Of a DNA stretch of 64,000 nucleotides, positions 5,884 to 12,528 are shown piece by piece; position 1 is the first letter of the stretch; every line of letters starts with the position of its first letter. The notes under the pieces were generated by a model, which saw only the letters and a program-made list of their open reading frames with translations, searched no databases and was not told the DNA's origin. The stretch covers positions 1 through 64,000 of the forward strand of contig JAQXDE010000055.1 of the NCBI GenBank assembly GCA_029251525.1, in the 5' to 3' direction. Source of the DNA: Saprospiraceae bacterium (GTDB lineage Bacteria > Bacteroidota > Bacteroidia > Chitinophagales > Saprospiraceae). The position numbers and the translations under genes were made by a program.

Positions 5884-7014
5884 CTAGGGGTTCAAAGTAT
5901 ACCTAACAGATGCTTGAAAATCATTGTTAAAGTCAGTTGATTCTTCATCGTCAATAAAAAGTTCAGTCAATCCTTTATTGAATCGAAAATCTACAGCTAC
6001 TCTTTCAGTGAGTTGTAATTCATATCCAACACTCAAACCAAGATCAACTTTTTCATAAATAGCGGGGTGGCGTGCATCCGTCGAACTATTGTCAGAATTA
6101 GGATCTTTTACATGAATCCAAGACGGTCTAACACCTGCCATCACACTACTTTTGTCATTTACGTTATATTTAGCTAAAATCGGAAATTCTATTACTGTCA
6201 AATTTCGAGCAATCACTTCTTGATTTGCAGTTACTCGATCAAAGGAAGTTGATACTGAGGTAATTGTTGTTGGAAGACTTAAAGTATTAACTTTTTCTTC
6301 CTTTGTTGTAAATGGCTGAACAAATCCTTTTCTAAAATTCACCTCCGCTTGCACACTCCATTTATCATTTATATTGTACCCTGCAAAAACTCCAACTCCC
6401 GGAGAAATTGCACCTTCTGGGATTAATGGGCTGCCTGAAACTGCTACTGTTCCACCTCCAAAAAATCCTGCTTTCACTCTTTTTTTGAATGGCAAGTTTA
6501 CTCGTGTTATAATTTCTTCACTTTCTAAAAAAGTATTAATTGTTGCAATTGGTTTTGTTAATTCTATTGCCTTTTCTATTTTTTCTTCTTCTTTCAATAG
6601 CTTGATTGGATTCATTTGAGGAAGTGGAGCAATTGGAGATTTTATTTTAGAATCTGTTGGTACATTTTTTTTCTTCAAAGGAATTTGTTGAAGAAAATCA
6701 ATTTTTTCTTTATCCTCTTCCAAATTAATTGCCTTAGTATCAATTGATTTTATTTCTTTTGATTCATTTGTAAAGTCAAATGTTTTTTCTAAAAATTCTT
6801 GAATCGGTTCAAAAGGAACGTACCAAGCAATGGATAACACTGTAACTGTAATTGTTAAAATCGCTAGACTAGATAACCATAATGGAGATCTTCTCGGATT
6901 ATGTTGGTTCAATTTCTTATTTAATGATTTCCATGCTTTAGGGTCAAAGTTGAACTCATGTTCTTCCAGTCGAAGTTTTAATTTCTGATCAGTTGAATTA
7001 TTGATGTTTTTCAT
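5884..7014 (-). CDS. Anti-sigma-like protein with inner-membrane helix and outer-membrane barrel domain (Dma-like)
   Basis: This 376-residue protein has three parts. Residues 1-42 are charged and cytoplasmic-looking, with the DPKAWKSLNKKL motif seen in Bacteroidota anti-sigma factors. A single membrane helix (about 45-65) follows, then a long Lys/Pro/Glu-rich linker (about 70-177). Residues about 178-376 consist of alternating beta strands (KAGFFGGGTVAVS, GVGVFAGYNINDKWSVQAEV, YTLNP end) like the OMP_b-brl family. It overlaps the upstream sigma factor gene by 4 bases, so the two are co-translated. The layout matches the dual membrane-spanning anti-sigma factors described in Bacteroides thetaiotaomicron, in which one chain links outer membrane to cytoplasmic sigma. 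That function is inferred; sequence support is the architecture and the gene pair. Confidence 0.75.
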   Translation of the reverse strand: MKNINNSTDQKLKLRLEEHEFNFDPKAWKSLNKKLNQHNPRRSPLWLSSLAILTITVTVLSIAWYVPFEPIQEFLEKTFDFTNESKEIKSIDTKAINLEEDKEKIDFLQQIPLKKKNVPTDSKIKSPIAPLPQMNPIKLLKEEEKIEKAIELTKPIATINTFLESEEIITRVNLPFKKRVKAGFFGGGTVAVSGSPLIPEGAISPGVGVFAGYNINDKWSVQAEVNFRKGFVQPFTTKEEKVNTLSLPTTITSVSTSFDRVTANQEVIARNLTVIEFPILAKYNVNDKSSVMAGVRPSWIHVKDPNSDNSSTDARHPAIYEKVDLGLSVGYELQLTERVAVDFRFNKGLTELFIDDEESTDFNNDFQASVRYTLNP

Positions 7015-7571
7015 ATTGCGACTTGGATTCTAAATTTGTTAACTAAAATTTGTTTCAGCTCTTTTCTAGCGTTTGATAGATGCCATTTAGAGGTACCATC
7101 ACTGATTCCAAGTTTGTCCCCAATTTCTTGATGTTTGTATCCATCAATTACATAAAGACAAAAAACAGTTCTACTAGAGGGAGGTAACATTTGTATAGCT
7201 TTGTAAAGATCTTCCGTGGCTAAGTTATCAATTGCATCATTATTGATGCTTGTTTCTTTCTCACTATTAAGGTCAATCACTTTTTTGTAGGTAATTTGTT
7301 TTCTTACGTGATCGATCGATGTATTAAAAACTATCCGAGCAATCCATCCTGCAAAGGTTCCAGGTTCTTTGAATTGGTGAATATTAGTAAACACTTTAAA
7401 AAAAGCCATATTAAGTACTTCCGTAGCTTCTTCTCTGTGGCTTGTATAGCGCATGCAAATGCCCAACATTTTACTAAAATACTTTTGGTAAACGTATTTT
7501 TGAGCTAACGGATGTTCTTTCCGACAGCCCAAAATAAGTTCCTGCTCGCTGCTTTGTGGTGTAAATTTCAT
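7011..7571 (-). CDS. ECF RNA polymerase sigma factor
   Basis: A 186-residue sigma-70 family ECF protein. Region 2 contains KYVYQKYFSKMLGICMRYT and GTFAGWIARIVFNTSIDHVR; region 4 contains LPPSSRTVFCLYVIDGYKHQ and a helix-turn-helix GDKLGISDGTSKWHLSNARK. The ATG at 7571 is preferred over an in-frame GTG five codons earlier (7586). The stop overlaps the downstream anti-sigma-like gene (ATGA-type overlap), which strongly suggests a sigma/anti-sigma pair. It diverges from the second sigma module starting at 8232. Confidence 0.92.
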   Translation of the reverse strand: MKFTPQSSEQELILGCRKEHPLAQKYVYQKYFSKMLGICMRYTSHREEATEVLNMAFFKVFTNIHQFKEPGTFAGWIARIVFNTSIDHVRKQITYKKVIDLNSEKETSINNDAIDNLATEDLYKAIQMLPPSSRTVFCLYVIDGYKHQEIGDKLGISDGTSKWHLSNARKELKQILVNKFRIQVAI

Positions 7572-8231
7572 TTTTTCGGTTGTCACTTATATCAACGTTT
7601 TGACCCTAAAATAAGGTTGGGTTTGTTTTTGAAAAAAGTATAAATGTTCACTTCATTCAACAATTTACGAATCGAAATTCAATAATTATCAATTGAAGTG
7701 CCGTTCATTTTTTTAAATAGATAATCTGAAAAGCATTTTAAATTATTCCTCTAAGATGAGTTTTCGTTTAGCTTTGATATTTTTTAAGTTAAGCCCAGAG
7801 TTTTTGATTCTTATAATGTGCTTTTTTGTTTGAAACTAAGGTATGTGGATTGGATAAATTAGTTGTCTTTCTCAAACTGATTTAACCTTGTATTAATATT
7901 CTATTTAAGAATTTAACAATTGTTTAAGAGACTATTGAGAAAAAATCGGGTTTTAAAATTTTCTTTGAGTCAAACTTATATGTTTTTGAATAAGGGGAAT
8001 CGATGTGAAACAACGGGAGTTAATCTGGATTTTGTGAATAGTGAAAAGAAAGGTGATTGTAGAAATCAACTTTCTATCGTCAACTCTGTAAAACTAGACT
8101 CAATAAATTTTATGCAAATAAGGTTTTTAGTAATAATAATTAATCCCCTTGTCGAATTTTTTATTTAAAAATTGTTACCGTTATAACTTTGCCATGATTT
8201 TGTAAAAAACAGATATACGCAATCAATAATA
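7572..8231. other. Divergent spacer between two sigma-factor operons, 660 bp
   Basis: It must hold the promoters of both operons; one -7 element for the rightward operon is at 8184-8191. An 82-codon frame beginning with TTG (7920-8168) and a 25-codon hydrophobic frame (7756-7833) are present but have nothing else in their favour. Confidence 0.5.
8184..8191 (+). promoter_or_regulatory. -7 promoter element of the sigma-FecR-STN operon
   Basis: TAACTTTG matches TAnnTTTG and ends 40 bases before the sigma factor ATG. No good TTG was found at the usual -33 distance. Confidence 0.5.
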
Positions 8232-8786
8232 ATGTCGAAAGAAAATCTTTCTGAAATTTTAGAGAAACTTCAATCGGATGATCAAACTATTTTGAAATCT
8301 TTATTTCAAGAATACTACCTTCCTGTATGTAAAAGTATCTATCGATTTGTTAAAGACAAATCAACAACGGAAGATATTGCTCAAGATGTTTTTATTAAGT
8401 TTTGGGAAAAAAGAAAGAAGCTCAATATTACATCGTCAGTTGCCGCATATTTACATCGGATGGGTATAAATGAAGCGATTTCTTATCTGAGAAGACACAA
8501 ACATTTTGAATCTGAAGAAGTTATCGAGTATTCCGTTCCAAATAATATAGGCTCTGGTGAATCAAAATTATTGCAGTCCGAATTGCAAGATAATGTTAAT
8601 AAAGCTATCGATTCCTTGCCTCCCAAGTGTCGTGCAATCTTTCAACTTAGCCGGTATGAAGAATTAACCTACAAAGAAATTGCTATAAAGTTAGATATTT
8701 CAGTAAAAACGGTTGAGAATCAAATGGGAAGAGCGTTGCGGATTTTGAGAATTAAATTGAGAGGATATTTGAGTTTATTCTTTTAA
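8232..8786 (+). CDS. ECF sigma factor (FecI-like)
   Basis: A 184-residue ECF sigma factor. Region 2 has LFQEYYLPVCKSIYRFV and STTEDIAQDVFIKFWEKR, region 4 has LPPKCRAIFQLSRYEELTYK followed by EIAIKLDISVKTVENQMGRA. This is the form that in Bacteroidota partners with FecR anti-sigma factors, and the FecR gene follows 87 bases downstream. It should direct RNA polymerase to this operon or to envelope genes upon an outer-membrane signal. The ATG at 8232 gives the usual family length. Confidence 0.93.
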   Translation: MSKENLSEILEKLQSDDQTILKSLFQEYYLPVCKSIYRFVKDKSTTEDIAQDVFIKFWEKRKKLNITSSVAAYLHRMGINEAISYLRRHKHFESEEVIEYSVPNNIGSGESKLLQSELQDNVNKAIDSLPPKCRAIFQLSRYEELTYKEIAIKLDISVKTVENQMGRALRILRIKLRGYLSLFF

Positions 8787-8873
8787 AGGATTTTAATATT
8801 CAAAAAAATAAAAACTAAAGTAGGGGTATCTTCCAGTTCATGTCGTCATATTATCGTAAGGCACGAAAAGATT

Positions 8874-9875
8874 ATGAAAGAGAATAAATATATCGAATTA
8901 ATCGCCCAGCATCTATCAGGAAAAATTTCAGAAAGTGATCGAAGAGACTTTAGGGAATGGATAAATTCCAATGCCAAAAATCAAGCGTTGTTAGAGGAAA
9001 TGAGACAATTGTGGGAGATTTCTAAAGAACACGATTTCTCTTTTGATACGAACGTAAAGGAAGCTTGGAAAAAAGTAGAGCAAAGAATAGAGGTAACAAA
9101 TGAGGCCAAAGGTTCGTCATTTAAAGCAATTCGTCTATTCAGTATTAAGCAATATTTAAAAATAGCTGCAGTAATTTTATTCGGTTCAGTTAGCTTATTT
9201 TTATTTTTCCAAAATCAAGAACCCGAATTATTTACTTTTAAAACAATTGAGGAGCAGACGTTGGATTTTCTATTGCCAGATTCAAGTCGAATTGTAATGA
9301 ATGAAAATAGTCATTTGACCTACCAAAATATTGAAGGAAAAAGAATTGTGACTCTAGCTGGAGAGGCTTGGTTTGATGTAAAGCATTTAGATTCAATTCC
9401 TTTTGAGATAGAAAGTGGCGAAACGAAAACTGTGGTACTTGGAACAACATTTAATGTGCGAGCTTATCCGCAAGAAGATATTACTGAAGTTTCTGTTGAG
9501 CGAGGAAAAGTGGCGTTTTTTGAAAAAGAAAATGAGGAGAATAAAAAAATACTAGAGGCAGGAATAGAAGGATTTTTTGATAAAATAGAAAAAACTGAAA
9601 TAGAAATAGAAGTAAGAGAAAATTCAAATGTGGATGCATGGAGAACTTTAACTATTGATTGTGATAACGTTAAATTGAGAAAAGTTTTTGAGACAATGGA
9701 ACGGTATTTTGAATTTGAAATTGAAGTGGCAGATCTTACTATTTTAGATTGTCATTTGTTTGGATCATATGAGAATCCAGAGTTTGATGTTTTATTTAAA
9801 TTAATGAAAGAGGCTCTTGGACTTAAAATAGAGAAAAAAGGAAACACTTATTTCGTTTCAGGTAAAGGCTGTTAA
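8874..9875 (+). CDS. FecR-family anti-sigma factor
   Basis: A 333-residue protein. Residues 1-90 are cytoplasmic, a membrane helix lies at about 94-112 (YLKIAAVILFGSVSLFLFF), then the periplasmic FecR domain (about 120-230: DFLLPDSSRIVMNENSHLTY, GEAWFDV, FEIESGETKTVVLGTTFNVR, EVSVERGKVAF). The end (about 250-333: DNVKLRKVFETMERYFEFEI) is the DUF4974 domain that contacts the outer-membrane partner. FecR proteins hold or activate their sigma factor and receive the signal from an STN domain; both partners flank this gene. It is therefore the middle member of a three-part signalling operon. Confidence 0.93.
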   Translation: MKENKYIELIAQHLSGKISESDRRDFREWINSNAKNQALLEEMRQLWEISKEHDFSFDTNVKEAWKKVEQRIEVTNEAKGSSFKAIRLFSIKQYLKIAAVILFGSVSLFLFFQNQEPELFTFKTIEEQTLDFLLPDSSRIVMNENSHLTYQNIEGKRIVTLAGEAWFDVKHLDSIPFEIESGETKTVVLGTTFNVRAYPQEDITEVSVERGKVAFFEKENEENKKILEAGIEGFFDKIEKTEIEIEVRENSNVDAWRTLTIDCDNVKLRKVFETMERYFEFEIEVADLTILDCHLFGSYENPEFDVLFKLMKEALGLKIEKKGNTYFVSGKGC

Positions 9876-9946
9876 AAGAATTAATCAAAATAATCACAAA
9901 GCGATTTAATCAAAGTTAAATTTTTTTAAAACCCTTAGCAACAACC

Positions 9947-11587
9947 ATGAAAAGCCATCATTGGATTTTTATAACATATTTACTTTTTGCAACAAATACC
10001 TTGTTCGCACAGGTTGCTATGATGGAAAAAAGGGTGACGATTCAATATTTTAATGTGGAGTTGGAAGAAGCGCTGGAGGGAATTAGCAAAGATTATGATG
10101 TCAAATTTACATACAGTATCGATCGGATTTCAGTAGATCAAATTGTAAGTGCAGATATTGAAAATACACCTTTGTCGGTGGCATTGGAAGAGCTGTTAGA
10201 AGAAACGGATATTATTTATGCGAATATCGGCGACCAAGTAGTTTTGAAAGTTGATTTGGGGAAAAGAAAATTATTAGCTGAGAGAAGTACGCAAAAGAAG
10301 GCAATTTCAAAGTCAAAACCTAAAAACCCAAATTGGGTTAGACAAAATATAACAATGCCTTTACAAATTGTAAGTTATCACAGTCCAACCAAATATTTGG
10401 AGGAGCCAGAATATGAAATAGACATTTATCCAGTTTGGGATCCATTTTTTTATAATGTTACTCTGGAAGAGGAGGTTGAGTTTTTTCTGGATGATATTTT
10501 TGATGAATCTTCTAACGGAGAGAAGTTGGCACAAATCACGTTCTTTGGGAATGTGGGTACAAATATGAATAATAATTCCGAAACAATAAATCAAGTTTCT
10601 GCAAATATTCTTTGGGGACATAATGGCGGAGTGAATGGAACAGAGGTCGGAGGGATTATAAATTCAATTGTCAGTGATGTGAAAGGAATTCAAATTGCAG
10701 GTGTTGGAAATGTGGTGGGAGGCGAAATGGAAGGAACACAGATTGGAGGAGTTTTTAATGTGAATCAAGGAACGACAAAAGGGCTGCAAGTAGCAGGGAT
10801 TACAAATATCGGAAGTAAAATAAAGGGCATTCAGGCAGCAGGAATTTTGAATGTGGCAAGAGAAGGATTATCCGGAATTCAGGTAGCTGGGATTGGGAAT
10901 GTTGCGGGTAGAATATCGAAAGGAGGCATGCAAGTATCTGGGATTTTCAATGTCAATAGAGGGGAAACGGACTTTCAAGTTGCACCAATATTGAATGTTG
11001 GAAAAAATGTAAAAGGGTGTCAAATCGGTTTATTTAATATAGCTGATACCATAGGCGGTTCCTCTATAGGTTTGATTAATATTATTAGGAAGGGATATAA
11101 TCGAATAGAATTTTCAGCTTCAGAGGTACTTTATTTCAATGTAGAATTAAAATTAGGATCAAGAGGATTTTATAATATTTTCCACACAGGTTTTCGACCA
11201 CATAAAGATGTTGAGGGTTATTTTGCATTTGGATATGGTTTTGGAACTTATATTCGAACCAAAAAGAAAAGACTTTCTCATAATCTAGAGCTATTGGTTA
11301 CTCAAATTAATAATATTAAACGTTCACCAGATGAAGGAGGACAAAGTACTGAAAAATTAAATCTGCTCAACCAGTTACGATGGACAATTGATTATCGAAT
11401 AGGTAGACAGACTAGCCTATTTGTTGGTCCAACTGTTAATGTGATGGTTTCAAAATTAGTAGATCAAAGTACACATGAATACAGGTTAGATATTTTGCCT
11501 TACAAATTCTTTGAAGAAATAGATCCTGGTTTGACTCCAACATACATTGCAGGTTGGATAGGCATAAATGCTGGAATTAGATTTTGA
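9947..11587 (+). CDS. STN-domain protein with surface-repeat barrel region instead of a TonB receptor
   Basis: A 546-residue protein. Signal peptide 1-22 (ends NTLFAQ), then an STN domain (about 28-100: VTIQYFNVELEEALEGISKD, FTYSIDR, TPLSVALEELLEETDI). After a linker, about residues 205-390 hold nine or so repeats of about 20-24 residues with the pattern GxQxAGxxNV (GIQIAGVGNVV, GTQIGGVFNVN, GLQVAGITNIG, GIQVAGIGNVA), like LA_2272-type surface repeats. The C-terminal part is beta-strand rich and ends in INAGIRF, typical of an outer-membrane barrel. STN domains normally sit on TonB-dependent receptors and talk to FecR; no plug or receptor barrel is present here. It probably takes the receptor's place in the sigma/FecR circuit. 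Confidence 0.8.
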   Translation: MKSHHWIFITYLLFATNTLFAQVAMMEKRVTIQYFNVELEEALEGISKDYDVKFTYSIDRISVDQIVSADIENTPLSVALEELLEETDIIYANIGDQVVLKVDLGKRKLLAERSTQKKAISKSKPKNPNWVRQNITMPLQIVSYHSPTKYLEEPEYEIDIYPVWDPFFYNVTLEEEVEFFLDDIFDESSNGEKLAQITFFGNVGTNMNNNSETINQVSANILWGHNGGVNGTEVGGIINSIVSDVKGIQIAGVGNVVGGEMEGTQIGGVFNVNQGTTKGLQVAGITNIGSKIKGIQAAGILNVAREGLSGIQVAGIGNVAGRISKGGMQVSGIFNVNRGETDFQVAPILNVGKNVKGCQIGLFNIADTIGGSSIGLINIIRKGYNRIEFSASEVLYFNVELKLGSRGFYNIFHTGFRPHKDVEGYFAFGYGFGTYIRTKKKRLSHNLELLVTQINNIKRSPDEGGQSTEKLNLLNQLRWTIDYRIGRQTSLFVGPTVNVMVSKLVDQSTHEYRLDILPYKFFEEIDPGLTPTYIAGWIGINAGIRF

Positions 11588-11898
11588 TTAGAAAACTAGC
11601 AACTCTTTAAATTAGAATGAAAATACTTTTACGAATTATTTTTCTTTAAACGAAATGGTATAATTTCGATATGTGTTTCTTTATCGTTGATGAGAATTTA
11701 AAAGTGAGTTTTACATCAAAATCTGTTAGTAAGGGAACAAAAAACTTTTAATTAGTTGACTTTTAATATGGCTCCAACCTACTTATATTTTGGCAAACAA
11801 AATTATGTTGATCAAGAGTTGGAGCTATTTAATCATTGGTTTGAAAACTAATAAGTAACAATTTTGAACATAATTTTTTTTAACAAAATTTATTAAAT
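11588..11898. other. Intergenic region, 311 bp
   Basis: It separates the STN protein from the small outer-membrane protein. A 27-codon frame with ATG (11768-11851, MAPTYLYFGKQNYVDQELEL...) is present, possibly a relic of a larger gene. No terminator was recognised. Confidence 0.4.
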
Positions 11899-12528
11899 AT
11901 GAAAAGGAACTTAATGTTAATAGTGCTTAGCCTTATAGCGCTTCAAGGATTTGGACAGTCGGAAACACTTTTTAATAGAGCAAGAGTGGTAGGTGCTTTT
12001 GGTGCACCAATTACTGAATTTAGTCAGTTTAAAGGAGATTATATTGTATCTTCTGGAGGCGGAGGTGGATTAATTATCGATGACTTTTTTATAGGGGGAT
12101 ACGGAATGGGTACGGTAGATATTAACGAATTTGTTGAGGATAATGAGGAACTAGAGATGGAAATGGCGCATGGTGGTTTCTGGTTAGGTTATACTTATAA
12201 ATCTTATAAATTGATTCATATTTTTGCGAGTGCAAAGTTAGGATGGGGTGGGATTGATATTGAAATTGATGAGTCAGGTTTTAGAACAGATGATAATATT
12301 TTTGTGGTGAGTCCTGAAATTGGAGTAGAGCTAAATGTTTTTCGGTGGTTTAAAATTGCAGGTACAGTAGGTTACAGGGCGGTCTCGGGTGTGAATTCTA
12401 TTACTGGGCAAAGTAACAAGGATTTTAGTGGAATGGCCGGAACATTGACATTTAGATTGGGTGGATTTGGTGATTGGAAACGAAGTCGAAGGGATAGAAG
12501 TAATAGGAGGAGTAGATTTGATGATTAA
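11899..12528 (+). CDS. Small outer-membrane beta-barrel protein
   Basis: A 209-residue protein with signal peptide (residues 1-19, LMLIVLSLIALQGFGQ) and then alternating glycine-rich beta strands (GGGGGLIIDDFFIGGYGMGT, GGFWLGYTYKSYKLIHIFAS, FVVSPEIGVELNVFRWFKIA, GTLTFRLGGFGDW). The end is unusually basic and arginine-rich (KRSRRDRSNRRSRFDD), which follows the last predicted strand. It probably forms a small barrel in the outer membrane. No family is named with confidence. It follows the STN gene on the same strand and could be part of its regulon; the 311-base gap leaves this open. Confidence 0.75.
   Translation: MKRNLMLIVLSLIALQGFGQSETLFNRARVVGAFGAPITEFSQFKGDYIVSSGGGGGLIIDDFFIGGYGMGTVDINEFVEDNEELEMEMAHGGFWLGYTYKSYKLIHIFASAKLGWGGIDIEIDESGFRTDDNIFVVSPEIGVELNVFRWFKIAGTVGYRAVSGVNSITGQSNKDFSGMAGTLTFRLGGFGDWKRSRRDRSNRRSRFDD

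Follow-up and report, generated by a model that had tools for sequence, protein, structure and literature searches.

Cell-surface signaling through FecR-type proteins is usually regarded as a property of TonB-dependent transporters. The FecA-FecR-FecI, PupB-PupR, and FoxA-FoxR systems share several features with the locus described here: an ECF sigma factor, a FecR-type regulator with an STN-like C-terminal domain, an STN domain on the outer-membrane partner, and the operon order. However, the partner in FecA-type systems is a TonB receptor, whereas the partner in our locus is a repeat-plus-strand module with no plug and no receptor barrel. Docking of the transducer STN on the C-terminal domain of the FecR-type protein is established for PupB-PupR and FoxA-FoxR (PMC7186176, PMC11637429). 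The STN binds this C-terminal part before the signal arrives (PMC7186176) and shields it from proteolysis (PMC11637429).

The PUMA3 system of Pseudomonas aeruginosa (VreA-VreR-VreI) also has an STN domain on a protein other than a TonB receptor, alongside a regulator of the FecR type and an ECF sigma factor, and it is the sole such precedent that we found. VreA, a mostly soluble protein of about 238 residues, ends in a TolA/TonB-like domain (PMC2729926). In contrast, the partner in our locus has a surface-repeat and barrel-like module without a TolA/TonB-like domain. The Dma proteins are related in another way, because there, too, a non-TonB outer-membrane β-barrel controls an ECF sigma factor across the envelope, and a sister family carries our module fused in this manner. 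However, Dma is a single polypeptide with an anti-sigma domain, a transmembrane helix, a tether, and a C-terminal barrel, whereas the link in our locus is split between FecR and an STN::module protein. The sigma factor also differs from those of Dma systems, as it belongs to the FecI clade. To our knowledge, the signals of the recently found Dma anti-sigma factors are not known. Finally, the LA_2272 and VC2662 surface-repeat proteins of NCBIfam share the GxQxxGxxN repeats. These models lack an STN and are not known to be tied to sigma control, whereas our protein has an STN and stands in a sigma-control setting.

The window that we analyzed is a 64,000-nucleotide stretch of a Saprospiraceae genome (contig JAQXDE010000055.1). 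A first-pass annotation had placed a sigma factor, a FecR protein, and an STN protein in one operon at 8232-11587, and profile matches confirmed this arrangement at the level of sequence. The first gene (8232..8786, + strand) encodes a predicted FecI-like ECF sigma factor of the Bacteroidota sigma-70 subfamily (TIGR02985, 156 bits against a cutoff of 126.4). In our tree, it clusters with the sigma factors of other FecR loci with a support of 99. As in FecI-FecR-FecA systems, it adjoins the gene of a FecR-type membrane anti-sigma factor or sigma regulator (8874..9875, +). Both domains of that protein scored over their cutoffs (PF04773, 57 bits; FecR_C, PF16344, 34 bits), and FecR_C, the STN-like C-terminal domain, spans residues 264 to 327.

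The third gene (9947..11587, +) encodes a 546-residue protein that we propose to be the outer-membrane transducer. Its closest named records are from two uncultured Saprospiraceae (78 to 79% identity). The protein begins with a signal-peptide-like sequence, followed by an STN signaling domain (residues 25 to 102; 10019..10252, +). A variable and presumably periplasmic tether, gappy and poorly conserved between conserved flanks, comes next (residues 103 to 194; 10253..10528, +). The C-terminal module consists of 16-residue, LA_2272-like GxQxxGxxN repeats (residues ~225 to 375; 10619..11071, +) and eight amphipathic, barrel-like strands ending in a terminal Phe (residues 383 to 546; 11093..11584, +).

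A separate Dma/Das-type pair on the reverse strand (5884-7014 and 7011-7586) lies divergently beside the operon. Its ECF sigma gene overlaps the partner gene by 4 bases. The partner protein has a transmembrane helix at residues 45 to 63 and an OMP_b-brl domain (E = 4e-11), and the pair is kept in the congeners G001 and G004.

The Pfam STN score of the single transducer protein (19.4 bits) is below the curated cutoff (28.4), and doubt about the domain was therefore justified. Among 13 homologs, 11 matched STN (best, 1.4e-7), and 12 matched the related FecR_C. A 13-sequence profile aligned with the STN domains of TonB receptors over 78 of 78 columns at a probability of 99.66% (E = 2.6e-25), whereas 10 column-shuffled controls reached at most 0.67%. 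This comparison ruled out a false STN match and upheld the assignment of an STN domain to the third protein. When solved structures were searched by profile, only PilQ was matched, weakly (E = 0.025) and through the STN part. Pfam searches at E values of up to 10 found no Plug or TonB-receptor domain in the protein and no TolA/TonB-like domain after the STN, in agreement with the earlier view that the STN is not joined to a plug and TonB-receptor barrel. Thus, by profile and by pairing, the partner of this FecR carries an STN domain as in FecI-FecR-FecA systems. However, it is not a TonB-dependent receptor with a plug and a 22-strand barrel.

The transducer contains six strict GxQxxGxxN copies, against a mean of 0.014 and a maximum of 2 in shuffled sequences. 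About eight to nine loose copies recur at a spacing of about 16 residues. The roughly nine GxQxAGxxNV repeats of the first-pass annotation are real. A suggested domain search for LA_2272-type repeats succeeded in 12 of 13 homologs (best, 1.4e-14) but left the window protein itself below threshold, at 13.3 of 25 bits. The strand-rich end was also recovered. The in-out alternation of its eight strands scored 21.8, compared with 9.4 ± 2.4 in permutations, with the strand borders taken from a low-confidence AF2 model. The pLDDT was 33 for the whole protein and 39 for the module alone, and the low-confidence module model has three short strands per repeat in a solenoid-like pattern. Because both AF2 runs used an alignment of three close sequences, we make no fold claims beyond the strand borders. 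A Foldseek search with the module model returned nothing better than an E value of 0.29. An outer-membrane location of the module is suggested by the alternating strands, by the Phe at the C terminus, and by the analogy to Dma, and the outer-membrane role proposed for it earlier fits the comparative data.

We then consider whether this FecR might work with a separate STN receptor encoded elsewhere. The genome has exactly three FecR genes and three STN genes, which are paired one to one, side by side. In the two remaining STN proteins, the STN is accompanied by CarboxypepD_reg and Plug domains, and both are ordinary TonB receptors. Therefore, no STN receptor is to spare, and the genome-wide searches found none unpaired. 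The proposal of an STN circuit without a TonB receptor survived this test.

We read 31 STN::module loci besides the window and counted the 29 with at least 2.2 kb of upstream sequence. FecR was immediately upstream of the STN::module gene in 28 of the 29, and an ECF sigma gene was additionally upstream in 24. Module genes without an STN had FecR nearby in 4 of 38 cases, and all four were copies adjoining an STN::module gene. The STN::module architecture occurs in many families within the same class, and the module is invariably C-terminal, with about 340 to 380 residues. In the remoter matches that we inspected, the module was solitary, mostly with a hydrophobic N terminus, and had no adjoining sigma or FecR gene. 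A search of viral contigs found no relative. Six STN::module loci (L043, L069, L070, L073, L074, and L081) contain a second, STN-less module copy; the sensor might act on this copy or together with it.

Purifying selection acts on all three proteins of the window circuit, namely the sigma factor, FecR, and the transducer. For the transducer, dN/dS is about 0.07 to 0.13, with synonymous sites close to saturation, and a degenerate transducer gene was thereby ruled out. These data bear on the idea that the STN is an evolutionary leftover on a surface protein, with FecR acting alone or through something else. The subthreshold STN score of the single protein would agree with such a remnant. However, the profile confirmation of the STN, its near-constant place beside FecR, and the selection on the transducer make this idea very improbable.

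The genes around the circuit vary. A plug-containing, STN-less receptor is near the STN::module gene in 13 of the 29 loci, with none nearby in the other 16, and a DUF2807 protein is near it in 18. A homolog of the small outer-membrane β-barrel-like protein encoded downstream in the window (11899..12528, +; weak OMP_b-brl match) is a recurrent operon partner, found in 8 of the 29. The G001 congener has sigma, FecR, STN::module, two copies of the 11899 type, the receptor, and DUF2807, followed by ankyrin and sugar-isomerase-like genes that are also downstream in the window. In the window and in G003, the receptor and DUF2807 are absent between conserved flanks. The G004 congener has a plug-bearing, STN-less operon receptor whose frame is broken, perhaps through an assembly error. 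The same congener has a 306-residue gene between sigma and FecR (L034, 10550-11470, −) that is absent from the window and gave no Pfam match.

Because the operon receptor is lost and the circuit is under purifying selection, the circuit seems to persist in the window genome without that receptor. This argues that import is dispensable, without proving it. The earlier statement that the signal cannot come from import was too strong in view of the plug-bearing, STN-less receptors in G001, G004, and the 13 relatives' loci. Such a receptor might capture a substrate and touch the module, which would pass an import signal on to FecR. In the window genome, the receptor would have to be one of two diverged, unlinked paralogs of the operon receptor (38% and 36%); the DUF2807 paralog is likewise diverged (about 29%) and unlinked. 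These paralogs and the receptors near the 13 loci, and also in Dma-type loci, give some ground to the adaptor idea, in which a receptor would be the actual sensor. However, the paralogs stand apart from any sigma or FecR gene, the operon receptor is missing from both the window and G003 while the window circuit is maintained, and more than half of the loci have no such receptor nearby. We therefore consider an adaptor role unlikely.

A candidate sigma-target promoter, TTGAC-N16-ACCTA, precedes the 11899 gene (11756..11781, +). Its footprint is kept in G001 and G004 and is also found 5′ of the G001 receptor gene. Genome-wide, the element had one exact match, and its 12 one-mismatch matches compared with 20 for the reversed control, so there was no enrichment over that control. 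We therefore call it a candidate promoter and withhold a regulon claim. A TAACTTTG box 5′ of the sigma gene (7990-8240) is kept in three congeners; it resembles what we take to be the Bacteroidota housekeeping −7 element. The conserved element of the 11899 gene differs from this box.

We suggest, with a probability of roughly two in three, that the locus encodes a FecI-FecR-type cell-surface-signaling circuit in which the outer-membrane transducer is an STN-bearing repeat-plus-barrel module and not a TonB receptor. In this scenario, the module in the outer membrane would sense an outside ligand or the state of the membrane. Before the signal, it would hold its STN on FecR, where the STN would dock at the STN-like C-terminal domain. 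If the module changed, this docking would be altered, and the direction of the switch is likewise presumed. FecR would then be proteolyzed, and the sigma factor would switch on envelope genes. The target here is probably the 11899 gene, to which relatives probably add the genes of the STN-less receptor and DUF2807.

A variant of this scheme differs solely in the stimulus. The module would bind no ligand, and barrel misassembly or a membrane disturbance would make the STN release FecR and start an envelope response, akin to other envelope-stress sigma systems. The neighbor genes encode envelope proteins, a second module copy adjoins the sensor in several loci, and the covalent Dma version of the module resembles Dma1 and Dma2, whose loss alters outer-membrane vesiculation (PMC13088901). 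However, stress-response genes are not evident in the loci, and the stimulus cannot be read off the sequence. We regard a reporter of assembly or integrity as possible but somewhat unlikely.

The Dma version is found in nine genomes (the family of G038), where the same module is carried by a protein of about 670 to 760 residues. An N-terminal segment of about 45 residues, predicted to be cytosolic, is followed by a transmembrane helix and a long tether, an anatomy described for Dma in Bacteroides (PMC13088901). An ECF sigma gene is directly 5′ of the module gene in seven of the nine loci; no sigma was detected in L145, and L149 starts at a contig end. DUF2807 is upstream of the sigma gene, and, in the loci with enough upstream sequence, a receptor precedes DUF2807; STN-less receptors occur here too. 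The order in L146 and L148 is receptor-DUF2807-sigma-Dma::module, and L047 is the FecR-type counterpart, with receptor-DUF2807-sigma-FecR-STN::module. A second Dma-type protein with an ECF sigma factor is encoded in G004 (L055, 7924-9859, −), and its barrel is weakly module-like (E = 4e-4).

Quick trees of the sigma factor, module, receptor, and DUF2807, with moderate support at several forks, placed the sigmas of FecR-type and Dma-type loci in separate clades. The Dma-type modules formed a single group (support 99), and the receptors and DUF2807 proteins of Dma loci nested among those of FecR loci. The simplest reading of these sequence comparisons is that one sensor and gene set was conserved while the sigma factor and the trans-envelope relay were exchanged. 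Because relatives carry the same sensor on another type of anti-sigma factor, the repeat-plus-barrel module may be an exchangeable sensing part. There is perhaps an even chance that Bacteroidota have an exchangeable outer-membrane sensor cartridge that signals without TonB on two relays, one noncovalent (STN and FecR) and one covalent (the Dma tether), and that the sensor and neighbor genes stay while the sigma factor and its regulator are exchanged.

The first-pass annotation had named no earlier description of this combination. We found no description of the STN-repeat-barrel form or of its exchange with Dma in the open-license literature, which is no proof of novelty; the placement of an STN on a nonreceptor has its precedent in VreA of PUMA3 (PMC2729926). 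This widespread variant, in which FecR has a different outer-membrane partner, would uncouple FecR signaling from import. The exchange of relays would serve as a natural experiment showing which properties an outer-membrane sensor must have to govern a sigma factor. It would also tie FecR signaling to the newly described Dma anti-sigma factors. The LA_2272-type repeat proteins would gain their first testable functional setting.
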